From: Planobacterium oryzisoli
Lineage (GTDB): Bacteria; Bacteroidota; Bacteroidia; Flavobacteriales; Weeksellaceae
NCBI RefSeq assembly: GCF_015354315.1
Contig: NZ_JADKYY010000010.1
Span: forward strand, 1-64,000
Length of the DNA stretch: 64,000 nucleotides
Direction of reading: 5' to 3'
Below the pieces are notes generated by a model. The model was given only the letters and a program-made list of their open reading frames with translations. It had not been told where the DNA came from and made no database searches. A program made the translations under genes and the position numbers. The first letter of the stretch is position 1, and each line of letters begins with the position of its first letter. Positions 17,459 to 33,414 of this stretch are shown here, in pieces.

Positions 17459-17485
17459 AAATCCGGTTAATTACCGGATTTTTTT
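17457..17485. terminator. Bidirectional terminator overlapping two stop codons
   Basis: Perfect 11-bp stem AAAAATCCGGT (17457-17467) / ACCGGATTTTT (17473-17483) with loop TAATT. The A-run on the left and T-run on the right let it act on both strands. The tatD stop (17456-17458) and the helicase stop (17467-17469, minus) fall in the hairpin. Confidence 0.85.
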
Positions 17486-18723
17486 CGTTGGAAATTGTTC
17501 TTACGATGTACAGGTTTACCCATTCCAGCTGGCTTTACGTGCTCTCGAGGAATGAATGGTTTGTTATTACTGTCTCTTTTTTCCACTACCAAATTATCAG
17601 TGTGGTAGGGGTGGTCACGAACTACTGGGATTTTCTTCCCAATAAGCTTCTCGGTATTCTTAAGATTAATTAGGTCCAAACCGTCAACAAAAGATATAGA
17701 ACTTCCCTGAGCTCCCGCGCGACCGGTTCTGCCGATCCGATGTACATAGGTTTCTGAAACATCGGAAAGTTCGAAATTGATGACATACTGCAAGTCGTCA
17801 ATATCGATACCTCGTGCAGCAATGTCAGTAGCAACCAAAACTCTCGTTTTTTTTGATTTGAAATTCGAAAGAGCATTTTGTCTTGCATTCTGCGATTTGT
17901 TTCCGTGTATTGCTTCGGCAGAGATATTGGATTTATGTAACCTTCTTGCTATTTTGTCCGCGCCGTGTTTAGTTCTGGAAAATACAAGGACCTGGTCTAA
18001 GCTTTTGTCCTGAAGTATATGAATTAGTAAATCAAGTTTCTCGTCTTTTTGGACAAAATATACAGATTGACTGATAGTATCTGCTGTGGAAGATACAGGA
18101 GCCACCTCTACTTTTACAGGATTTTTCAATATGGATTGTGCTAATGTCTGAATTTCCGAAGGAAAGGTAGCAGAAAAAAACAGGGTCTGTCTTTTTTCCG
18201 GAATTAATTTCACAATACGCTTTACGTCATGAACAAATCCCATGTCAAGCATGCGGTCAGCCTCATCGAGCACAAAAACCTCTAGATTCTTAAGGGAAAT
18301 GATACGCTGCGAGATAAAATCTAGTAAGCGTCCAGGAGTTGCTACCAGGATATCCACGCCCCGTCTAAGATCTTTTTCTTGCGCACCCTGCTTTACTCCC
18401 CCAAAGATAACGAGTGAACGTAAATTTAAGTTCCTTCCATAAGACTTAATACTTTCATCAATTTGGATTGCAAGTTCTCTAGTGGGAGTAAGAATTAGTA
18501 CCTTAATGTCCTTTGACTGTCTGCCTTTTTTTGATAGGTTTTGAAGAATCGGTATAGAAAAAGCAGCAGTCTTTCCAGTACCCGTTTGTGCGGTTGCTAA
18601 AAGATCTCTGCCGTCTAAAATATAAGGAATTGCTTTTTGTTGAATGGGGGTGGGCTGTTGGTACCCTTCCTGCTCCAATGCCTTGGCAATGGGCTCAATG
18701 AGTTGTAAGTCTGAAAAATTCAA
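17467..18723 (-). CDS. DEAD-box RNA helicase, RhlE type
   Basis: 418-residue RNA helicase. Motifs: Q motif ([12 protein letters not shown], about 20-31), [10 protein letters not shown] (motif I), PTRELA, TPGR, DEAD, SAT, and HRIGRTGR (motif VI). The C-terminal 45 residues are basic and without a recognisable fold, as in RhlE proteins. Likely roles are ribosome assembly and mRNA decay. It is monocistronic, with a -7 element 57 bases upstream and a shared terminator at its end. Confidence 0.9.
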
Positions 18724-18780
18724 ATGATGATAAATTTAATAGTAATTGCAAACAGGGTAGTCCTGTATCTTGCGCAGCTG

Positions 18781-18788
18781 CAAATGTA
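18781..18788 (-). promoter_or_regulatory. -7 element of the RhlE-type helicase gene
   Basis: TACATTTG on the minus strand fits TAnnTTTG. It would give a leader of about 50 bases before the helicase start at 18723. Confidence 0.5.
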
Positions 18789-18818
18789 CGGAATTAATAT
18801 TTGTAGTGACAGTAGCTG

Positions 18819-19802
18819 TTATCCGTGCAGTTTCTTCCAGATAACATCCTTGAGCTCCATCAGTCCTTCTTGAGTTACCCCTGAAATAAAGAGAGGAGGG
18901 TTCTCCATAGGAAACTCTTTGGAGATTTCCGATTTCAATTCCGCGTCTAAAAGGTCTGATTTTGATACTCCCACCACAAACTGTTTGTCCAAAAGTTCAG
19001 GATTGTATTTTCTCAATTCGTGTTCCAAAATCTTGAATTCTTCATAATGACTTTCTGAGTCGGCAGGAATAAGAAAAAGTAAGATCGAGTTTCTTTCAAT
19101 ATGTCTCAAGAAACGATGCCCCAATCCCTTCCCCTCAGCAGCACCTTCTATTATCCCAGGTATATCTGCCATCACAAATGATTTGTAATTTCTGTACTCT
19201 ACGATACCAAGGTTAGGCGTAAGAGTAGTAAAGGCATAGTCTGCAATTTTTGGCTTTGCAGCAGATACCGCTGCCAGTAAAGTGGACTTTCCTGCGTTAG
19301 GGAAACCAATCAAACCTACATCAGCTAGAATCTTAAGTTCAAATGTAACATATCCTTCCTCTCCCGGCAGTCCAGGCTGTGCATAACGTGGAGTCTGATT
19401 GGTAGAGGATTTAAAATGTTCATTACCTAAACCTCCTTTTCCACCATGCATAATGATAATTTCCTGTCCGTCCTCCATTATCTCGCCAATGATTTCTCCT
19501 TCTTCATTTTTTGCGATGGTGCCAATTGGTACATTAATATAGACGTCCTCTCCGTAGGCACCTGTAAGTTGATTTTTAGCACCGTTCTGACCGCGGGGCG
19601 CTTTTACGTGACGGGTATATCGTAATGGAAGGAGTGTCCATTCGTGGGCATTTCCGCGCATGATGATATGTCCTCCACGTCCTCCGTCCCCACCATCAGG
19701 TCCTCCTTTGGGAATGTATTTTTCCCTTCTCAAATGGGCTGAACCAGCTCCACCGTGACCACTCTTACAGTGTATTTTGACGTAATCAACAAAATTGGAC
19801 AT
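18819..19802 (-). CDS. obg: GTPase Obg
   Basis: Essential GTPase that binds the large ribosomal subunit and links growth to ribosome maturation. The N-terminal glycine-rich Obg fold (about 1-158: [20 protein letters not shown] and further GG repeats) is followed by the G domain with G1 GFPNAGKS, G3 DIPGI and the TTLTPNLG switch I. At 327 residues it lacks the C-terminal OCT domain found in Firmicutes. The start codon lies 12 bases after the adk stop, so it is the last gene of an hpt-adk-obg operon. Confidence 0.95.
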
Positions 19803-19814
19803 ATGTATTTTTAC

Positions 19815-20405
19815 TTAAGTTTTGTTTTTAATTAGCTTATCCACCTCTTGGCAAAGTTTCATGGTGATTTCTTCGATAGCTCCCACGCCATTTATCTCTA
19901 CATATTTACCCTGCTGCTTATACAGCTCCGCCACTTCTGCGGTCTTAGTGTAATATTCCTTGATTCGGTCACGTATGATAGCCTCGTCGCTATCGTCGGT
20001 GCGTCCGCTTGTTTTACCACGGTTAACTAAACGATCTACTAGGATCTCATCGTCTACCACTAAGGCAAGGCAGATGTCTATCTGCGCATTGAGTTCCTTG
20101 TCTACAATCTCCTCAAGAGCTTGAGTTTGTGCTGCAGTACGAGGAAAACCATCAAAAATGTAGCCATTTGCATTACTCGGTTTTCTCACCTCATCCACAA
20201 GCATATCTATAGTCACCTGGTCTGGAACCAATTTACCACTGTCAATGTAGCTTTTTGCAAGCTGCCCTAATGAGGTGTTGTTCTTCATGTTGTATCTGAA
20301 GAGATCCCCCGTAGAAATTTGTTTTAGATTATATTTTTCGATTAAATTAAGAGCCTGCGTTCCTTTTCCGCTTCCTGGAGGCCCAAATAGAACAATGTTT
20401 ACCAT
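19815..20405 (-). CDS. adk: Adenylate kinase
   Basis: Interconverts ATP + AMP and 2 ADP. The P-loop is GPPGSGKGTQ near residue 7; the AMP-binding block ISTGDLFR and the FDGFPRT block follow. At 196 residues it is the short form, with a compact LID lacking zinc-binding cysteines. It lies 25 bases after hpt and 12 before obg on the same strand. Confidence 0.95.
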   Translation of the reverse strand: MVNIVLFGPPGSGKGTQALNLIEKYNLKQISTGDLFRYNMKNNTSLGQLAKSYIDSGKLVPDQVTIDMLVDEVRKPSNANGYIFDGFPRTAAQTQALEEIVDKELNAQIDICLALVVDDEILVDRLVNRGKTSGRTDDSDEAIIRDRIKEYYTKTAEVAELYKQQGKYVEINGVGAIEEITMKLCQEVDKLIKNKT

Positions 20406-20430
20406 CGGTATGCTTGTATTTAACTATATA

Positions 20431-20985
20431 TTAGTGATTAATGCGACCCTCCGCTAATTGGTACAAATCGGGGAGATTTCTTCCCAATTCGTCGTAATCC
20501 AGACCGTAGCCAAGCACAAACTTATTTGGTATTTCTTTGGCAACGTAATCAATAGTAAAATCCTTCTTAAATACTTCCGGTTTCAAGAGAAGCGAAGCTA
20601 CTTTAAGGGACTTAGGTCTTTGGGTATTTTTGAAATATTCAAACAAACTTTCAATGGTATTACCGGTATCCACGATGTCTTCCATTAAGATGATGTGTCT
20701 ACCCTCCACTTCTTTAGTAAGGTCCATCTTCTTATACACAATCCCAGTTGACTGTGTGCCGGCATAAGAACTAACCTGAAGAAATGCAATTTCACATTGC
20801 CCAGGGTAATGCTTAAGAAAATCGGAAAAGAACATTATAACACCATTCAACACGCCTATGAAAACAGGAACTTCGTCTTTATAATCCTCATAAACCTTGT
20901 GCGCAAGATCTTTTATGATTTGCTGGATTTCATCATTTTTGAGATATGGTACAAACTCCTTATCGTGAATCTTAATTGTCTGCAT
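20431..20985 (-). CDS. hpt: Hypoxanthine phosphoribosyltransferase
   Basis: Salvages hypoxanthine and guanine with PRPP to give IMP and GMP. The PRPP-binding motif LMEDIVDTGNT lies in the middle, preceded by the usual VFIGVLNGVIMF block. I set the start at the ATG at 20985 (184 residues). The reading frame is open for 31 further codons, but a TAnnTTTG promoter element at 21001-21008 lies in that extension and family members start near MQTIKIHDKEF. First gene of the hpt-adk-obg operon. Confidence 0.93.
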   Translation of the reverse strand: MQTIKIHDKEFVPYLKNDEIQQIIKDLAHKVYEDYKDEVPVFIGVLNGVIMFFSDFLKHYPGQCEIAFLQVSSYAGTQSTGIVYKKMDLTKEVEGRHIILMEDIVDTGNTIESLFEYFKNTQRPKSLKVASLLLKPEVFKKDFTIDYVAKEIPNKFVLGYGLDYDELGRNLPDLYQLAEGRINH

Positions 20986-21000
20986 AGAATAGTAAAAATG

Positions 21001-21008
21001 CAAATTTA
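21001..21008 (-). promoter_or_regulatory. -7 element of the hpt-adk-obg operon
   Basis: TAAATTTG on the minus strand, 15 bases before the hpt ATG. It gives a very short leader and decides the hpt start. Confidence 0.65.
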
Positions 21009-21087
21009 CGACATTTTCTCTAAGTGAAGTCTGTGAACTAGTATTTGAACGAAGATAGCTATATCCTGAAAAAAGCAAGGGTGAAGT

Positions 21088-21118
21088 TTGTATGACTCTT
21101 ATTTAAAAAGTAAATTTG
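21088..21118 (+). promoter_or_regulatory. Promoter of purA
   Basis: TTG at 21088-21090, 20 bases, TAAATTTG at 21111-21118: a complete Bacteroidota promoter 25 bases before the purA ATG. Confidence 0.8.
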
Positions 21119-21143
21119 TACCCTATCCATAAATAAGTAAAAT

Positions 21144-22430
21144 ATGTCTACATATGTTGTAGTTGGTCTTCAGTATGGGGACGAAGGTAAAGGTAAAATT
21201 ACTGATGTACTTTCTGCCAAGTCAGACTATGTTGTTCGGTTTCAAGGTGGTGATAATGCAGGTCATACTGTATATGTAGGAGATGAAAAATTTGTTTTGC
21301 ATTTGCTTCCTTCAGGTGTGCTACAATGCAAGGGAAAGTGCATAATAGCCAACGGGGTTGTGGTTAACCCAAAGGCTTTCATGCGTGAAATTGGCCAACT
21401 GGAGAGCAAGGGAATGCGTACCGACCATGTCTACATTTCCAGACGTGCACATGTGATTATGCCCTATCATATTGCTCTAGACACGTACCGTGAAGAAGAA
21501 AAAGGCGGTACAGAAATTGGCACAACTAAAAAAGGTATAGGCCCTTGTTATGAGGATAAAATCGCTCGAGTAGGAATACGTATGGTGGATTTGCTTAATC
21601 CTGAAGTTCTACGTGAGAAAATTGAAAAAAACCTACGGGTTAAAAACAGTCTTTTTGAAAAATATTTTGAGAAACCGACTATGGATCTGGATGAGATTTA
21701 TAACGAATTTCTGGAAATCGGTCAACAACTCAAACACAGGATTGTCGATACTGAAGTGGAATTAAATGAGGCAATAAAGCAAGGTAAAAATGTTCTTTTT
21801 GAAGGAGCACAGGCGCTTATGCTCGATATTGATTTTGGGACCTATCCTTATGTGACGTCTTCATCTCCTACAACGGGGGGTGTGTGTTCAGGCGCTGGAG
21901 TCCCACCCACAGCATTACAGAATTTAATTGGTGTTTCCAAAGCCTATACTACCAGGGTTGGAAATGGGCCGTTTCCGTCAGAACTGAATGACGAATTGGG
22001 GGAACAAATGCGCAAAGTTGGCAATGAGTTTGGGGCTACTACGGGACGTCCCAGAAGATGTGGTTGGCTTGATCTGGTGTCACTCAAACATGCCTGCATG
22101 ATAAATGGTATCAACAATTTGGTCATTACTAAACTCGATGTACTTACTGGAATAAAACCACTGAAAATTGTAACGCACTACCGTACAGAGGATGGTAAAA
22201 TAATTGACTACTTTACTTCCTCAACAACAAAATTGTACCATTACGAGCCTATTTATAAGGAGTTGGAAGGATGGGATGAAGATATTAGCCATGCCCGATC
22301 GTACGACGAGCTACCTCGCAATGCGAAGGCATACATTGAATTTATAGAAGAGTATTTGGGTATTAATGTATACTTGGTTTCGGTAGGGCCTGAGCGTAGT
22401 CAAAACATAATTCGAAAGGAACTTTTTTAA
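21144..22430 (+). CDS. purA: Adenylosuccinate synthase
   Basis: Catalyses the GTP-driven condensation of IMP with aspartate, the first step from IMP to AMP. The N-terminal GDEGKGK loop, NAGHTV block, GTTKKGIGP block and a C-terminal SVGPER guanine-binding block are all present. At 428 residues it is full length. It has its own promoter and is followed by the DnaA-box hairpin with a T-run, which may also serve as its terminator. hpt, in the same purine pathway, lies back to back on the other strand. Confidence 0.96.
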   Translation: MSTYVVVGLQYGDEGKGKITDVLSAKSDYVVRFQGGDNAGHTVYVGDEKFVLHLLPSGVLQCKGKCIIANGVVVNPKAFMREIGQLESKGMRTDHVYISRRAHVIMPYHIALDTYREEEKGGTEIGTTKKGIGPCYEDKIARVGIRMVDLLNPEVLREKIEKNLRVKNSLFEKYFEKPTMDLDEIYNEFLEIGQQLKHRIVDTEVELNEAIKQGKNVLFEGAQALMLDIDFGTYPYVTSSSPTTGGVCSGAGVPPTALQNLIGVSKAYTTRVGNGPFPSELNDELGEQMRKVGNEFGATTGRPRRCGWLDLVSLKHACMINGINNLVITKLDVLTGIKPLKIVTHYRTEDGKIIDYFTSSTTKLYHYEPIYKELEGWDEDISHARSYDELPRNAKAYIEFIEEYLGINVYLVSVGPERSQNIIRKELF

Positions 22431-22480
22431 CTAGAGTCATTTTAAGTTGGGGTTAGCAGCGCTACCTATTCATACAGAGT

Positions 22481-22520
22481 ATTATCCACATTGCACCACG
22501 TGATGTGGATAATTTTTTTA
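22481..22520. repeat. Inverted repeat made of two perfect DnaA boxes
   Basis: A perfect 11-bp inverted repeat: arms 22481-22491 and 22503-22513, with an 11-base loop. Each arm contains an exact DnaA box, TTATCCACA (22482-22490) and TGTGGATAA (22504-22512). The loop holds CACGTG, the core of the parS palindrome, but the flanks do not match parS. A run of seven T follows, so it could instead be the purA terminator. An AT-rich stretch follows to about 22560, with a weak third box TTATTAACA near 22532-22540. Directly upstream of parA. Confidence 0.7.
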
Positions 22521-22595
22521 TTAGTTAATACACTTATTAACAGTACTTTAACTTTAGCATCACTATGCTAAGGGGATTTGGGATTAAAAAAATTG

Positions 22596-22603
22596 TATTT
22601 TTG
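22596..22603 (+). promoter_or_regulatory. -7 element of the parA-parB operon
   Basis: TATTTTTG fits TAnnTTTG. A TTG lies at 22578-22580, 15 bases upstream, slightly shorter than usual. The parA ATG follows 18 bases after the element. The element sits inside the in-frame extension beginning at 22565, which is therefore probably untranslated. Confidence 0.55.
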
Positions 22604-22621
22604 GTCATTAAATACCATAGA

Positions 22622-23428
22622 ATGGCGAAAATAATTGGTGTAGCAAACCAAAAAGGTGGAGTAGGAAAAACAACAACTGCAGTTAATTTAGCTGCTGCAT
22701 TGGGAGTGCTTGAAAAGAAAGTGCTTCTAATTGATGCAGATCCCCAAGCGAATGCTACCTCAGGACTAGGGGTAGAAGAAGTGCGTTATTCTACCTACAA
22801 TCTCCTGGAGCATAGTGCAGATGTAGAAAACTGTATTCAAAGAACAAGTTCGCCTAATGTGGATATAGTGCCTTCTCATATCGATTTGGTGGCAGCAGAA
22901 ATAGAACTGGTCGATAAAGCTAAGCGTGAGTATATGCTGAAGAATGCTTTAAATGAAGTTAGAGACCGTTACGACTTTGTAGTTATTGACTGCGCGCCAA
23001 GTTTAGGACTTATCACTGTAAATGCACTCACTGCTGCTGATTCGGTTATTATTCCTATTCAATGCGAGTATTTTGCACTTGAAGGTTTGGGGAAACTACT
23101 CAATACGATCAAGAACGTCCAAAAAATCCATAATCCGGATTTGGATATCGAAGGTTTACTATTAACCATGTACGACAGTAGATTACGTCTATCCAACCAA
23201 GTTGTGGAGGAAGTAAATTCGCATTTTCCAGAAATGGTATTTGAAACCGTGATAAGTAGAAACGTTCGGTTAAGTGAAGCGCCAAGCTTTGGGGAAAGCA
23301 TTCTTATGTACGATGCGGAAAGCAAAGGAGCTATCCAGTATATCCAATTAGCTGAAGAGGTGCTTTTGAAAAATGACCACTTAAAGTCAAACGTTAAACC
23401 AAAAAAACAGCAGAAAGTTGAAAGATAA
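22622..23428 (+). CDS. parA: Chromosome partitioning ATPase ParA (Soj)
   Basis: Deviant Walker ATPase that binds the nucleoid and moves ParB-parS complexes to segregate replication origins. The N terminus MAKIIGVANQKGGVGKTTT carries the Walker A box with its signature lysine; LLIDADPQANAT and VIDCAPSLG follow. At 268 residues it is the short chromosomal form without an N-terminal DNA-binding domain, so it does not look like a plasmid type Ia ParA. I chose the ATG at 22622 over 22565 because a promoter element lies between. It overlaps parB by 11 bases. Confidence 0.94.
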   Translation: MAKIIGVANQKGGVGKTTTAVNLAAALGVLEKKVLLIDADPQANATSGLGVEEVRYSTYNLLEHSADVENCIQRTSSPNVDIVPSHIDLVAAEIELVDKAKREYMLKNALNEVRDRYDFVVIDCAPSLGLITVNALTAADSVIIPIQCEYFALEGLGKLLNTIKNVQKIHNPDLDIEGLLLTMYDSRLRLSNQVVEEVNSHFPEMVFETVISRNVRLSEAPSFGESILMYDAESKGAIQYIQLAEEVLLKNDHLKSNVKPKKQQKVER

Positions 23429-24302
23429 AAAAAGAGCGATGGGTCGTGGATTAGGAGCTATTCTAAATTCTGAATCCAAGGTGTCCATTCATTCTGCAAG
23501 TGACGAAGGCGCGGAATCTTTTGTGGGTACTATTATTGAAGTGCCTATTGAAGATATTTTTCCAAACCCAACCCAACCTCGAACTTACTTTGATACCAAA
23601 GCACTAGAAGAACTTTCGGAATCAATCAAAAGTTTAGGAGTGATTCAGCCCATTACACTTCGTAAGGAAGGTGAAAAATTCGAAATAATTTCAGGGGAAC
23701 GGCGATACCGTGCATCAAAGTTGGCGGGCCTTAAATCCATTCCTTCTTATATAAGATTAGTTAACGACCAGGAATTGCTGGAAATGGCGCTTGTAGAAAA
23801 TATTCAACGAGAGGATTTAGACGCTATTGAAATTGCATTGACCTATCAACGTTTACTTGAGGAAATAGGGATGACACAGGAGAGCCTTAGTAAAAGGCTG
23901 GGTAAAGAAAGAAGTACCATTACAAATTCCATTCGACTACTGCGTTTAAATCCACAGATTCAGAATGCTATTCGTAGAGGGGAGATCTCCGCAGGTCACG
24001 GTAGAGCTTTACTGACAGTAGAAGACCAGAGGTCACAGTCACTTCTTCTGGAGAAAATACTCAAGGAGGGTCTTAATGTACGTCAAACTGAATCTGCCGC
24101 AAAAGCCCTAAAGAAAAGCAGCGAGATGCCAGGTAGAAAGATTGTGCCTAATGAGATAAAAAAGCTGCAGAAGCAAATGGAAGATAAGCTAGCAGTTAAA
24201 GTAGAGATAAAGACCAATTCCACAGGTAAGAAAGGTAAGATAGTGCTGGACTTTAAAAGTGAAAAAGAACTTGAAGCCATTATTTCATATTTTTCTCTAT
24301 GA
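23418..24302 (+). CDS. parB: Chromosome partitioning protein ParB
   Basis: CTP-dependent DNA clamp that loads at parS sites near the origin. The N-terminal ParB/Srx domain has the CTP-binding blocks NPTQPR, GVIQPI and GERRYRA; a helix-turn-helix region follows (MTQESLSKRLGKERSTITNSI), then a C-terminal dimerisation segment. 294 residues with a TTG start overlapping parA; an ATG seven codons later (23439) is the alternative. The basic N terminus KDKKRAMGRGLGAIL is typical for the family, which favours the TTG. The last four bases overlap the next gene. Confidence 0.94.
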   Translation: MKDKKRAMGRGLGAILNSESKVSIHSASDEGAESFVGTIIEVPIEDIFPNPTQPRTYFDTKALEELSESIKSLGVIQPITLRKEGEKFEIISGERRYRASKLAGLKSIPSYIRLVNDQELLEMALVENIQREDLDAIEIALTYQRLLEEIGMTQESLSKRLGKERSTITNSIRLLRLNPQIQNAIRRGEISAGHGRALLTVEDQRSQSLLLEKILKEGLNVRQTESAAKALKKSSEMPGRKIVPNEIKKLQKQMEDKLAVKVEIKTNSTGKKGKIVLDFKSEKELEAIISYFSL

Positions 24303-24925
24303 GTAAAAGTATCACTCTAATTCTTAGTATACTGGTAATCTTTGTTCAGGGACAAGTAACCAAGAACGACACAATACGGGTGGAAAATTACCCAACGGAT
24401 TCACTCTCTAGCGTGACACCAAAATCCGAACTGCTTATAGAATCAGAGATTCAAGAAGCCAATACGGTGGTCTCCCCAACACTTAGCCCAATAAAAGCAG
24501 GACTGTATTCGGCAGTACTTCCGGGGTTAGGGCAATACTATAATAAAAAATTATGGAAAGTGCCCATCGTGTGGGGTGCTCTTGGTACCGGCGTGGGCGT
24601 AACACTTTGGAATGATAAACAATATAAGCGGTACCGTGAGGCTTTCATCGCGGAGCTAAACGGTCAGCCGCATGAATTTTCTGACATACCGGGAATTACC
24701 AAAGAAGCACTTGGACGGACGCAGGATAAGATGAAACGTCAAAAGGACTATTCCATTGCGGTAACTGCATTAGTTTATATTCTAAATATTATGGATGCAG
24801 TAGTTGATGCGCATTTGTATCAGCAACGAAACGATCCGGATTTGGCTTTGAAACCAGTTCTAATACATGATGAATATTCCACACAATGGGCCAAAGCGGG
24901 AATTAGTTTAAACTATAATTTTTAA
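24299..24925 (+). CDS. DUF5683 domain protein, exported or membrane-bound
   Basis: 208 residues. The N terminus is a signal peptide (cut near GQVTK). Residues about 60-180 match what I know as DUF5683: a SAVLPGLGQYYNKKLWK block, two hydrophobic segments around the glycine-rich GALGTGVGV and the YSIAVTALVYILNIMDAVVDAHL helix. The family is common in Bacteroidota and its function is unknown. It overlaps parB by four bases and precedes dapB by five, so it belongs to the operon. The family call is moderately secure. Confidence 0.75.
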   Translation: MSKSITLILSILVIFVQGQVTKNDTIRVENYPTDSLSSVTPKSELLIESEIQEANTVVSPTLSPIKAGLYSAVLPGLGQYYNKKLWKVPIVWGALGTGVGVTLWNDKQYKRYREAFIAELNGQPHEFSDIPGITKEALGRTQDKMKRQKDYSIAVTALVYILNIMDAVVDAHLYQQRNDPDLALKPVLIHDEYSTQWAKAGISLNYNF

Positions 24926-24930
24926 AAGAG

Positions 24931-25638
24931 ATGAAGATAGCAATAGTAGGTTACGGAAGAATGGGGAAAATAATAGAGAAGATAGCTATGGAAAGAGGCC
25001 ATTCAATTTGTGCACGCCTCAGTGAGACACCGACCAGGGAAAATCTTGGAGGTGCGGAAGTGGCTATCGAATTCTCCAAACCTGAAGTAGCATTTGATAA
25101 TGTTAAAAGTTGTATTGAGCTGGGAGTACCTGTGGTGTGTGGAACCACTGGATGGCTTACTCAGAAACCTGAAATTGAAGCATTAACGCATGCTACAGAG
25201 GGTGCTTTTCTATACGGGTCCAATTTCAGTCTAGGAGTGAATCTGTTTTTTGCTTTAAATGAAAAATTAGCGCAGCTAATGGAAGCACAAAAAGAATATA
25301 CCTGTCAGTTGGAAGAAATACACCACGTGCATAAGAAAGACGCACCCAGTGGTACTGCAATTACGCTTGCGGAAGGAATAGTAGACAACTCTGTGCGATA
25401 CAGCTATTGGAAAATGAATGAAACTAAAGAAGATCAACTTGGTATTTTTGCCGTTCGCCAAGACGACGTGCCTGGGACGCACAGTGTATTCTATAGGTCC
25501 AATGTAGACGAAATTGAGATAAAGCATACCGCCCACAGTAGAGAAGGCTTCGCTCTAGGTGCCGTAGTCGCTGCAGAGTGGATTAAAAATAAAAAAGGGG
25601 TGTTTTCTATGCGCGACGTACTTGGAATCACCTATTAA
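24931..25638 (+). CDS. dapB: 4-hydroxy-tetrahydrodipicolinate reductase
   Basis: Second committed step of the diaminopimelate/lysine pathway, feeding peptidoglycan. N-terminal Rossmann loop VGYGRMGK, then GTTGW, the catalytic block EEIHHVHKKDAPSGTA, and FALGAVVAAEW near the C terminus. At 235 residues it is slightly short but complete. Five bases after the DUF5683 gene and 23 before lepB. Confidence 0.94.
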   Translation: MKIAIVGYGRMGKIIEKIAMERGHSICARLSETPTRENLGGAEVAIEFSKPEVAFDNVKSCIELGVPVVCGTTGWLTQKPEIEALTHATEGAFLYGSNFSLGVNLFFALNEKLAQLMEAQKEYTCQLEEIHHVHKKDAPSGTAITLAEGIVDNSVRYSYWKMNETKEDQLGIFAVRQDDVPGTHSVFYRSNVDEIEIKHTAHSREGFALGAVVAAEWIKNKKGVFSMRDVLGITY

Positions 25639-25661
25639 TAACAGACTCCTGAAAAATTGAA

Positions 25662-27323
25662 ATGAACTATTTTGTAATTTATTCCCTGTACGTGTTGCTA
25701 TTATCCCTATTGATGGGAATTAGTACGTGGAAGCTGTTTAAAAAGCTGGGAATTAACCCGCTATTTGCGTTTATACCATTCTATAACTATTACCTAATAC
25801 TTAAAAAAGCTGAAAAACCCGCGTGGTGGACTGTTTTTGCTTATTTTCCTGTAGTAGGACCAATCATGATAAGCGTATTTCATTTGTACCTAATGCGACT
25901 TTTTGGCAAAACATCTACTACACAGAGAGTACTAACTGTGTTGTTACCTTTCCTCTACATTGCGCTAGTTAATTACGACGCGAAAACCGAACTTGAAGCG
26001 CCCGAATACCTGTTACCTGGTGAAGAAGAAGAAAAGCACGGAAAGGAATCGTTTCTTGGATCGGTTACTTTTGCTGTTGTGTTTGCCACTGTAATTCATG
26101 TTTTTATAACCCAACCATTTGGAATTCCAACAGGGTCTATGGAGCGCACTATGCTTGTGGGTGATTTCTTATTTGTGAATAAGTTGAATTACGGATTTAG
26201 AATGCCGATGCGACCAGTGTCTATTCCTTTCATACAGGGGACTATTTGGGATACTGGTGAAAAAGGAAATCCCAAAGACGATCCAAAATCATATGTGGAA
26301 GCAGTAAAACTTCCTTATTTCCGGTTTCCAGGATGGGAAGAGCCTAAACGAAATGATATTGTGGTTTTTAATTATCCAGACGATTCGGTGCATATTGCAA
26401 TTGACAGAAAAGATCCCTATGTCAAAAGGTTGGTGGCTGAGCCAGGTGATGTAATGGAAATGCGTGCTGGAAGACTATTTATTAACGGAAAGCCCGAAGT
26501 GCGTATGGGGGATGCTCAGGTACAGCATAGTTATGAAGTATATACAAGTTCACAATTAGACATTCCCTCTCTATATGACCTTTATGGTTTCTTACCAGTA
26601 GTAGAGCAACAAACGACCAATGGATATTACTACCATTTCCAAGGTTTAACCGACGATGTGGCTAAGGAATTATCACAGTCGTCACTAGTGCTGAGTATTA
26701 ATGAGATTATCGAGAAGAAGGGGGATAAGGACCTTAGTTATTACCCAGATGTAAACAAGTCCATTGAGTCCCAAAGTTTTGTTCCAAGCACTAAAATAAA
26801 TTATTCGTCCACCATATTTCCACATGATAAGAATTGGAATATGGACTGGTATGGGCCGGTCACTATTCCCAAGAAAGGAACGACAGTTATTTTAACGTCT
26901 CAGAATATAAGACTATACGAAAAGATCATTACAGTTTATGAAAATAATACGCTAGAACTAAAGGACGGGAAATTTATAATTAATGGCCGACCAACAGAAA
27001 AATATACGTTTGCGTACAATTACTATATGATGGTGGGGGATAATCGCGATGCTTCTTTAGATGGGAGATACTTCGGTTTTGTACCGGAAACCCATATTGT
27101 AGGTAAACCCATGTTTACCTGGCTTAGCGTAGAGGGATTGTTTCAAGACCAAAATTCTTCCTATCAGGCCAATGGCAAAAGCCTGCGCTGGGATCGCATG
27201 TTTAAAGCTACCAATACAGGAGAGCTACACAAAACTTCCTATACCTGGCTTGCGGTTCTTCTACTAATTGTGTTTTTTGGATGGGAATATATTATGAATT
27301 TCATAAAAAAGTTTAAAAAGTAG
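25662..27323 (+). CDS. lepB: Signal peptidase I, long Bacteroidota form
   Basis: Removes signal peptides of exported proteins at the outer face of the inner membrane. Residues 1-105 hold three or four hydrophobic segments resembling DUF5684. The catalytic part begins with a membrane segment and the nucleophile S159 (PTGSM); the general base is K255 (VKRLVAEPGD); GDNRDASLDGR lies at about 459-469. Between the lysine block and the GDNRD block lies an insert of roughly 190 residues absent from E. coli LepB. A further membrane segment ends the protein. 553 residues in all, against about 320 in E. coli. Last gene before a terminator. Confidence 0.9.
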   Translation: MNYFVIYSLYVLLLSLLMGISTWKLFKKLGINPLFAFIPFYNYYLILKKAEKPAWWTVFAYFPVVGPIMISVFHLYLMRLFGKTSTTQRVLTVLLPFLYIALVNYDAKTELEAPEYLLPGEEEEKHGKESFLGSVTFAVVFATVIHVFITQPFGIPTGSMERTMLVGDFLFVNKLNYGFRMPMRPVSIPFIQGTIWDTGEKGNPKDDPKSYVEAVKLPYFRFPGWEEPKRNDIVVFNYPDDSVHIAIDRKDPYVKRLVAEPGDVMEMRAGRLFINGKPEVRMGDAQVQHSYEVYTSSQLDIPSLYDLYGFLPVVEQQTTNGYYYHFQGLTDDVAKELSQSSLVLSINEIIEKKGDKDLSYYPDVNKSIESQSFVPSTKINYSSTIFPHDKNWNMDWYGPVTIPKKGTTVILTSQNIRLYEKIITVYENNTLELKDGKFIINGRPTEKYTFAYNYYMMVGDNRDASLDGRYFGFVPETHIVGKPMFTWLSVEGLFQDQNSSYQANGKSLRWDRMFKATNTGELHKTSYTWLAVLLLIVFFGWEYIMNFIKKFKK

Positions 27324-31579: not shown

Positions 31580-32167
31580 ATGGTAAAACTTTACTGTTTC
31601 GATTTTGATGGTACACTTACAACTAAGGATACGATGTTTCTTTTTCTAAAGTTCTATAATAAAAAACAGTATTACAGGCAATTTTTAAAGTTTCTACCAC
31701 TTTTTATTCTCCTTAAAATGGGCCTTCTTAAAGCAGAGCAGGTTAAGGAGAGCTTTATAGCTTCTCTTTTGAAAGGAGAAAGTCAGGAGAAACTGAAGCA
31801 TGCTAGCGAAAAATTTTACGAGCTTAACGCCGAGATTATTTTACGGCCAAATGCGAAACGATTCATATCGCAAATGCACGAAGAGGGACATTCTGGAGTA
31901 ATCGTTTCCGCTTCTCTTAATATATGGCTTGAACCATTTGCGCGTCAGTTAAATTTGGACCTGATATGTACACAAGCACAGTTTGTGGATAATAAGTTTA
32001 GCGGAAAGTTCTCCACTCCGAACTGCACACAACAGGAGAAGGTAGTGCGTTTAAAAAGATATTTAGATGGGAAAAGGTTTGACCGTTTAATTGCTTTTGG
32101 CGATAGTTCAGGAGATTTCCCCATGCTGGAGTATTCCAACGAGGGCCATTATAAATATTTTCATTAA
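31580..32167 (+). CDS. HAD-IB family phosphatase
   Basis: 195-residue HAD hydrolase. Motif I is FDFDGTL with D8 and D10; motif II lies in VIVSASLN; motif III is KVVRLKRYL, and motif IV is FGDSSGDFPML. The helical cap between residues about 15 and 90 is basic and hydrophobic, as in phosphoserine-phosphatase-like membrane-peripheral members. As partner of the UbiA-like gene it may remove the 5-phosphate from the prenyl-phospho-ribose intermediate; that is inference from context. Confidence 0.75.
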   Translation: MVKLYCFDFDGTLTTKDTMFLFLKFYNKKQYYRQFLKFLPLFILLKMGLLKAEQVKESFIASLLKGESQEKLKHASEKFYELNAEIILRPNAKRFISQMHEEGHSGVIVSASLNIWLEPFARQLNLDLICTQAQFVDNKFSGKFSTPNCTQQEKVVRLKRYLDGKRFDRLIAFGDSSGDFPMLEYSNEGHYKYFH

Positions 32168-32232: not shown

Positions 32233-33414
32233 ATGACTACAAGAGTATACCTTGACAATGCTGCAACGACTCCCGTGGATAAGCAAGTACTTGCATGTAT
32301 GATGGATACGATGGAGAAAAATTACGGTAATCCATCTTCTACACACAGCGCTGGCCAGGAAGCTAAAACAGTAATTGAGAATGTCCGACGTCAAATCGCG
32401 AAGGTACTAAATGCACAACCAAGTGAAATAATATTCACGTCCTGCGGTACCGAATCCAATAATATGATTATCCACTCTTGTGTGGATCATTTAGAGGTAA
32501 AACGTATTATAACCTCTCCTTTAGAGCATAAATGTGTTGCTGAGGCAATACGGGATACGAAAATGCGCAAAGGAGTGGAAGTTGTTTATTTAAGACCGGA
32601 CAAAATGGGTGTATTGTCTTTAACTGATCTAGAGGATTTGCTAAAGAGCTCAGATAAAAAGACTCTCATAAGTTTAATGCATGCAAATAATGAGGTGGGT
32701 AATCTGTTGGATCTTAAAAAAGTGTCGCAATTAGCACAACAGTACAATGCACTTTTTCATTCTGACACAGTGCAAACCATTGGGCATTTACCATTAGATC
32801 TAACTGATATTCCGCTAGATTTCGCTTCGTGCAGTGCACATAAATTCCACGGTCCGAAAGGCTCAGGATTTGCTTTCATTCGTAAAACATCCCGATTAAA
32901 GCCTTATATCTTGGGAGGACCTCAAGAAAGAGAGCTGCGCGCAGGAACCGAGAACGTTGCAGGTATTGCAGGATTAGGTAAAGCGTTTGAGCTAGCATAT
33001 GATAATTTAGAAACTTATTCAAAGCATATTTCTGAGATTAAGAACTATGCCATCCAACAGCTGAAAGATTCTATTCCTGGTGTTACGTTTAATGGATTGT
33101 CCGGGGATCTAAATTCGAGCTTGTATACTGTATTATCGGTACTGCTTCCTTTTAAAAATCCTTTGATTGGACTTCAACTTGATATGAAAGGTATTGCAAT
33201 TTCTCAAGGAAGTGCGTGCAGCGCCGGAGCTTCTAAGCCTTCGATCGTACTGATGATGCTTCTCGATGACCATGAGCTGGAAAATTCTACGCCATTGCGA
33301 GTTTCATTCTCTCATTTAACGACTAAGGAAGAAATAGATTATTTTGTGCAGGCGGTAAAGGAGATAAGTAGTTCTTCTTCTTTGATAGAAAATGCAGATG
33401 CGATACATAGATAA
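32233..33414 (+). CDS. Cysteine desulfurase (NifS/IscS type)
   Basis: PLP enzyme that takes sulfur from cysteine for iron-sulfur clusters and tRNA thiolation. N-terminal YLDNAATTP, substrate block NNEVGN, PLP-lysine block SAHKFHGPKGSGF, and the active cysteine loop GSACSAG near residue 328. 393 residues, full length for the IscS/NifS group. No IscU or other assembly gene is next to it, so I do not give a gene name. It follows the HAD gene after 65 bases. Confidence 0.9.
   Translation: MTTRVYLDNAATTPVDKQVLACMMDTMEKNYGNPSSTHSAGQEAKTVIENVRRQIAKVLNAQPSEIIFTSCGTESNNMIIHSCVDHLEVKRIITSPLEHKCVAEAIRDTKMRKGVEVVYLRPDKMGVLSLTDLEDLLKSSDKKTLISLMHANNEVGNLLDLKKVSQLAQQYNALFHSDTVQTIGHLPLDLTDIPLDFASCSAHKFHGPKGSGFAFIRKTSRLKPYILGGPQERELRAGTENVAGIAGLGKAFELAYDNLETYSKHISEIKNYAIQQLKDSIPGVTFNGLSGDLNSSLYTVLSVLLPFKNPLIGLQLDMKGIAISQGSACSAGASKPSIVLMMLLDDHELENSTPLRVSFSHLTTKEEIDYFVQAVKEISSSSSLIENADAIHR

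Follow-up and report, generated by a model that had tools for sequence, protein, structure and literature searches.

Genes and sequence features of the locus

The window is a stretch of 64,000 nucleotides from Planobacterium oryzisoli. Between purA and parA it contains a hairpin built from two exact DnaA boxes, followed by a T-run, an AT-rich stretch and a putative promoter element (Table 1). The hairpin agrees with the sequence-only reading of this DNA, which had described two exact boxes as the arms of a perfect 11-bp inverted repeat, CACGTG in the loop (present at 22497-22502), an AT-rich stretch with a weaker box before parA, and seven T directly after the stem. The same reading, made by eye, had noted no further exact box, but the window does hold a third, at 31984-31992 on the minus strand, inside an open reading frame.

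Table 1. Features from purA to lepB in the window
Feature	Position	Strand	Basis or remark
purA, upstream neighbour	21144-22430	+	ends 51 bp 5' of the left box
Perfect inverted repeat, 11-bp arms (22481-22491/22503-22513)	22481-22513		loop of 11 nt, 22492-22502
Left DnaA box, exact, TTATCCACA	22482-22490	+	word scan of the window
Right DnaA box, exact (TGTGGATAA on the plus strand)	22504-22512	-	word scan; end 83 bp 5' of the -7-like element
T-run of seven T, intrinsic-terminator-like site	22513-22519	+	terminator scan
TTATTAACA, box-like with two mismatches, AT-rich stretch	22534-22542	+	inside the partly conserved TTAACAATANTTTAA stretch
TATTTTTG, putative -7 element (Bacteroidota type) of the parA promoter	22596-22603	+	consensus match
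parA (ParA-type ATPase)	22622-23428	+	NCBIfam ParA-type families matched, all those shown below cut-offs
parB	23439-24302	+	TIGR00180 above cut-off
DUF5683 gene, dapB and lepB	24299-27323	+	same direction as parAB

The -7-like element of parA is named from TAnnTTTG, which we take to be the Bacteroidota promoter consensus. The DUF5683 gene, dapB and lepB possibly form a single operon with parAB. The best named matches of the window ParA are from Chryseobacterium, Kaistella and Epilithonimonas. The DnaA of the same genome carries the box-binding domain PF08299 in a domain search, and its gene sits on a different contig from the hairpin.

Folded as RNA, the hairpin has 14 pairs and a predicted energy of -17.9 kcal/mol (z -5.1). 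No second arrangement of this kind occurs in the 2.1-Mb genome, even with three mismatches allowed. The genome contains 33 exact DnaA boxes (16 forward and 17 reverse), compared with 19 copies of the reversed word, and a simple estimate from the 33 boxes gives about 0.002 exact inverted pairs expected by chance at a spacing of 8-25 bp. When one mismatch is tolerated, the window holds 39 boxes, an enrichment over shuffled sequence (mean 18.9, largest 30). No Rfam family matches positions 20000-26000 at gathering score. A near-match inverted pair, TTATCCACT-N4-TGTGGATCA, is found at 32468-32489 and is probably due to chance.

Conservation of the inverted pair

In the family, which we take, from the ParA matches named above, to be the Weeksellaceae in all counts, the exact inverted pair at a spacing of 8-25 bp is present in 100 of 148 genomes and 20 of 33 genera, and the reversed control is present in none of the 148; the genomes compared are related, and these counts are not independent. 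The pair is single in 91 of the 100 carriers and present in two or three copies in the other nine. Across the order, at a spacing of 11-14 bp, 71 of 76 family genomes contain the pair, compared with one of 319 genomes outside the family (reversed control, 1/395). No parA start is found in the 3-kb locus of this single outside genome. The matched loci lie at parA in 39 of the 46 examined and elsewhere in seven, including the one outside the family. Both exact boxes are found in 19/19 loci from Chryseobacterium, Kaistella and Epilithonimonas and in 27/30 family loci (the window's own included), and in these they start 114-143 bp 5' of the parA start.

The exact pair is missing from 48 of the 148 family genomes, and the DNA 5' of parA was examined in 23 of these. 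In 18 of the 23, parA is present and no exact box occurs within 300 bp of it. One of the 18, G014, has a near-box at 83 bp from the -7-like element. The exact right box is kept in the other five, at 83, 84, 84 and 85 bp from this element in G022, G017, G015 and G033, and at 61 bp in G005. G015 contains a second exact box 72 bp 5' of parA. By eye, the T-run is lost in G015 and G005, and another hairpin with a T-run, GC-rich in G017, stands before the box in G017 and G005. Loss of the boxes with retention of the hairpin and its T-run, the pattern that the earlier reading had set against its own idea, is not seen in any of the 23 genomes; in the five that keep the right box, it is the left box that has decayed.

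No exact box lies within 300 bp of parA in 61 further parA loci, nearly all from other Flavobacteriales; at least one of them (L052, Moheibacter lacus) belongs to the family, and one has less than 150 bp of upstream sequence. Since 48 of 148 family genomes and all 61 further loci lack the pair, parAB does not need it in general.

In one genome (G003, locus L291), two copies of the hairpin are found about 1.1 kb apart 5' of parA, resembling an insertion or duplication between them.

Spacing to the parA promoter-like element

In 66/66 distinct loci with the pair, the right box ends 81-85 bp 5' of the -7-like element (TATTTTTG or TACTTTTG). These were reduced from 85 loci with an exact pair, any locus that yielded no parA start or no exact pair being set aside. 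Among 20 genus representatives, one per genus from the genomes carrying the pair, the distance is 81-84 bp, and it is 83 bp in 12 of them.

Most of the DNA that fills this distance is less conserved than its length. In the 20 representatives, mean identity at positions 11-60 between the box and the -7-like element is 42% (31% when shuffled), identity in the loop is 37%, and identity in the 20 bp 5' of the left box is 33%. The T-run (71%) and the DNA just before the -7-like element (61%) are higher. The TTAACAATANTTTAA stretch starts 24-25 bp 3' of the right box in 49 of the 66 loci. On the upstream side, the gap to the nearest same-strand open frame ranges from 21 to 407 bp in 28 representatives, and it is purA in some, a TonB-like gene (PF03544 below cut-off) in others, and neither in the rest. 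Judged by these distances, the pair is set to the predicted parA promoter element and not to the upstream gene. This is the placement of a DnaA-regulated promoter, in which boxes stand at a conserved position relative to the promoter, with the promoter here identified as a consensus match.

A proposed DnaA-binding element of the parAB promoter

The reading that we favour, and hold to be probable though far from secure, is that the hairpin is a cis-regulatory DnaA-binding element of the parAB promoter that doubles as the stem of an insulating terminator. The earlier suggestion of a DnaA regulatory or titration site for parAB gains support from the conserved exact boxes and the fixed spacing of 81-85 bp, from which we infer binding by DnaA and a response of parAB. 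A DnaA dimer would bind the two inverted boxes, whose starts are 21-23 bp (about two helical turns) apart. The bound pair, with its right box 81-85 bp 5' of the -7-like element, would tie parAB transcription to the level or nucleotide state of DnaA. When transcribed, the same DNA would form an intrinsic terminator that blocks read-through from any upstream gene, and bound DnaA could reinforce termination as a roadblock. DnaA would then modulate parAB, by activation or repression, from about 90 bp upstream. This distance weighs against the proposal, being far for simple repression.

The accessible text of PMC11317965 gives TTATCCACA as the consensus DnaA box of E. coli, reports that E. coli DnaA prefers pairs of boxes 2-3 bp apart, with close matches at 15 of 16 bound regions, and mentions termination by a DnaA roadblock. 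The E. coli promoters bound or regulated by DnaA (nrdA, polA, purH, uvrB and dnaA) share with the parAB locus paired TTATCCACA-type boxes upstream of the gene. Unlike the pairs described in that text, the boxes here are inverted and 12-14 bp apart, a difference that counts against the proposal. The target is also different (parAB), the boxes form a terminator-like stem, and the organism belongs to another phylum. As for the roadblock, insofar as that text describes it, a box in a transcribed region could likewise stop RNA polymerase here, with the difference that these boxes themselves form an intrinsic-terminator-like hairpin. The pair would work like a DnaA-regulated promoter site.

The word TTATCCACA is more frequent than its reversed control in G027 (50 vs 12), G026 (24 vs 13) and G008 (48 vs 27), and less frequent in G039 (21 vs 28). 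It may not serve as the DnaA box in every genome, because it occurs exactly in only three of six likely oriC gaps (described below) and is not commoner than the control in G039.

A possible titration or DARS-like role

An unlikely alternative, though one to be taken seriously, is that the hairpin is a locus for titration, inactivation or reactivation of DnaA, like datA, DARS or a box cluster, and that its placement at parA is secondary. Opposed boxes in an intergenic region outside oriC are shared with DARS1 and DARS2 of E. coli; in the accessible part of PMC5742627, three boxes make up DARS, and box I points the opposite way, so that boxes I and II lie in opposed orientation. The single copy in 91 of the 100 carrier genomes and the presence of other DnaA-box clusters in the family also fit such a locus. 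The anatomy differs in the number of boxes. Two exact boxes are present, not the three with set spacing of DARS nor the minimum of three of datA, and TTATTAACA, whose stretch is present in 49 of 66 loci, is two mismatches off. As the third DARS box is missing, the hairpin is not a DARS by anatomy. With datA and the DnaA-box clusters the locus shares boxes outside oriC that could titrate DnaA; it differs from them in having a single pair and no conserved chromosomal position. The hairpin keeps a fixed distance from the parA promoter-like element and a variable one from parS, which argues against this alternative. Nor does it hold a constant place on the chromosome, as DARS and datA do, lying at 0.36-1.0 of a half chromosome from parS.

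Terminator-like properties of the hairpin

The sequence-only reading had also offered that the hairpin may be only a purA terminator. In appearance it is a terminator. The terminator scan is positive at the hairpin, and at least five of the eight nucleotides after the right arm are T in 66/66 loci. For inner stem pairs 1-4, pairing is kept in 62, 62, 56 and 54 of the 66 loci, where independent columns would give 50, 44, 39 and 33 (kinship ignored), and the covariation includes changes from A-T to T-A. Stem pair 5 and the outer positions have no pairing excess in the 66 loci, and the box part is invariant and therefore uninformative. The stable hairpin, T-run and covarying pairs of an intrinsic terminator are thus all present, the last in inner pairs 1-4 only. 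The words "only" and "purA" do not stand, as the upstream gene changes and the hairpin does not travel with purA.

A control for shared stems comes from 20 loci, each about 20 kb long and 14 of them from Chryseobacterium, in which perfect inverted repeats of 9 bp were compared. The arm TTATCCACA is common to 20/20 of these loci, and the next unrelated arm is found in 11/20. Other terminator-like 8-bp arms in the same loci reach at most 12. Both the box letters and the stem pairing appear to be selected, because the arm is shared by all 20 loci and the inner pairs covary.

These results bear on a further explanation, that the hairpin is no more than the upstream gene's intrinsic terminator, with a stem that reads as two DnaA boxes by chance. 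It accounts for the scan match, the fold z of -5.1, the T-run in all 66 loci and the covarying inner pairs. It does not account for an arm common to 20/20 loci where other terminator-like arms reach no more than 12, for a distance that is fixed to the downstream promoter-like element and variable to an upstream gene that may be purA, TonB-like or neither, or for the exact right box that stands without a T-run in G015 and behind another hairpin in G017. A plain terminator is therefore disfavoured, and we regard it as quite unlikely.

An additional arm, TGAAGTATT, is found in 11 of 20 parAB loci of about 20 kb (L003, L005-L007, L011-L014 and L016-L018), all from Chryseobacterium.

A possible other regulator of the palindrome

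The palindrome TTATCCACA-N12-14-TGTGGATAA could be recognised by a regulator other than DnaA, which we hold to be very unlikely. The spacing within the pair and the distance to the promoter would suit a dimeric regulator, and the exact word is absent from the likely oriC gap in three of six genomes. Against this, the word matches the E. coli DnaA box at every letter, the likely oriC gaps of the other three genomes contain it, and single right boxes survive.

Position relative to the replication origin

The suggestion that the hairpin is part of oriC is contradicted by the position of parS. The parS consensus TGTTTCACGTGAAACA occurs twice in the genome, at 54987 and 56875 of contig C18, on either side of mnmG, and matches with up to two mismatches are confined to the same contig. 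In relatives, the position of parS is that of the close pair of sites. In 21/21 single-contig relatives that carry the DnaA-box pair, the hairpin lies 531-2203 kb from the parS pair and at least 96 kb from dnaA. Relative to a half chromosome, the distance to parS is 0.36-1.0 (eight chromosome lengths exact, 13 rounded to 0.1 Mb), and the position is not fixed. The hairpin positions of G001, G051, G052 and G032 were set from the position of parA. Lone weaker matches were set aside, among them one with one mismatch about 85 kb from the hairpin in G059 and one with two mismatches about 27 kb from the hairpin in G039; the reversed parS control gives one or two matches in some genomes.

The genome of the window is in 20 contigs, and GC skew was sampled in two complete relatives instead. 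In G027, the sampled minimum is at the 1.68-Mb sample, with parS at 1.70 Mb and the hairpin at 2.62 Mb. In G026, it is between the 1.35- and 1.49-Mb samples, with parS at 1.44 Mb and the hairpin at 2.29 Mb. The skew is weak and noisy in both, and the hairpin is 0.85-0.92 Mb from parS. The GC-skew check named in the sequence-only reading thus places the sampled minima of these two genomes, weak as the skew is, at parS and not at the hairpin.

Within the window, GC skew is positive at 1-18 kb and 20-38 kb and negative at 18-20, 38-44 and 52-54 kb. The dip at 18-20 kb falls where genes run on the minus strand (17467-21078).

Two exact boxes and an AT-rich stretch near parAB, together with a nearby change in skew from -0.062 (18-20 kb) to +0.127 (22-24 kb), would suit an origin, but those minus-strand genes lie nearby, the skew is positive at 1-18 kb as well as 3' of the hairpin, the exact parS sites are on contig C18, and the skew minima of G027 and G026 are at parS. 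Because of the parS positions, the sampled minima and the separate contig, oriC at the hairpin is rejected; it is refuted as far as sequence can refute it, and we give it next to no credence.

CACGTG in the loop was considered as a parS half-site and rejected; the loops are not conserved, and parS matches are found only on C18.

Chromosomal parAB usually lies close to the origin, and the sequence-only reading had relied on this. The parAB genes here depart from the rule, lying at least 531 kb from parS (0.53-2.2 Mb) in all 21 single-contig relatives with the DnaA-box pair.

A likely origin between pgk and rpiB

The gap between pgk and rpiB is likely to be the oriC of the window's genome. It is 640 bp long (C18 59004-59643; locus L169), contains two exact boxes TTATCCACA and is 2-4 kb from the two exact parS sites that flank mnmG. 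The parS regions of five relatives contain pgk in five and rpiB in four. An exact box is present in the pgk/rpiB gap of three of six genomes (the window's own, G027 and G061), and none is present in that of G026, G039 and G008. All six genomes show a reversal of skew near the gap, to which we give little weight, as pgk and rpiB are divergent genes and the bins further out are mixed.

In G061, the gap next to parS is 649 bp. The accessible text of PMC8994065 gives a predicted oriC of Elizabethkingia meningoseptica that is also 649 bp and lies far from dnaA. That species belongs, by our reading, to the same family. As far as that text describes it, the 649-bp region is a predicted origin, and the hairpin lies elsewhere.

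A possible DnaA regulon and a second box pair

A more tentative extension, which we consider possible and would not call probable, is a DnaA regulon in the Chryseobacterium group. Inverted pairs would stand at fixed distances before the promoters of parAB (81-85 bp, with a DnaA-gated terminator) and of a small RNA (47-48 bp), and the initiator would set the output of partition proteins in each cycle. If so, control by the initiator could matter here, as parAB lies far from oriC and would receive no early gene-dosage pulse. If the initiator controlled segregation genes by way of a DNA site, the start of replication would be linked directly to the movement of the copies. A single short site with exactly known borders makes the question testable, with genera that have it and genera that lack it as a natural contrast. 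A literature search found no DnaA-box site before parAB or in a terminator, which is weak evidence of absence, most subscription journals being outside its scope.

The candidate small RNA of this proposal would be preceded by a second pair, with a shorter spacer. With one mismatch allowed, TTATCCACA-N6-TGTGGATAA is found in 54 of 148 family genomes and nine of 33 genera, with the reversed control in one. In 27 of the 30 loci viewed (L217-L227 and L229-L244), the pair is part of a conserved non-coding element. The other three (L215, L216 and L228) are of a different kind, L228 being without the motif, and are outside the comparison of 29 sequences, which consists of the 27 loci with G026 and G027; loci L177, L213, L301 and L302 are also linked to the second pair. 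A promoter-like TA..TTTAC word (TACATTTAC or TAAATTTAC) lies 47-48 bp 3' of the pair in 27 of the 29 sequences. After it come about 100 nt, a terminator-like hairpin (GAAGC..GTCGGCTTC or a related form) and the conserved stretch TTGTCTAA.TAAAAAAATGAGAT. This element is a candidate DnaA-controlled small RNA. In five second-pair loci, the only Rfam match at gathering score is tRNA.

The second pair is absent from the window's own genome at up to one mismatch, and an exact motif scan does not find the element in the window. The congener G022 has the element, with TACTTTTG. Two genomes had suggested that the second pair is a uvrA-linked site. This was rejected, as a uvrA C-terminus lies within about 1.5 kb in only 10 of 30 loci; by eye, no exact pair is present in the 260 bp after either uvrA-like gene of the window's genome.

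Intergenic clusters rich in DnaA boxes are found in genus g21 (L123, L278 and L283). Within about 280 bp, L123 contains eight exact or near boxes and L278 contains six, and neither locus has parA. The three clusters are possible titration loci.
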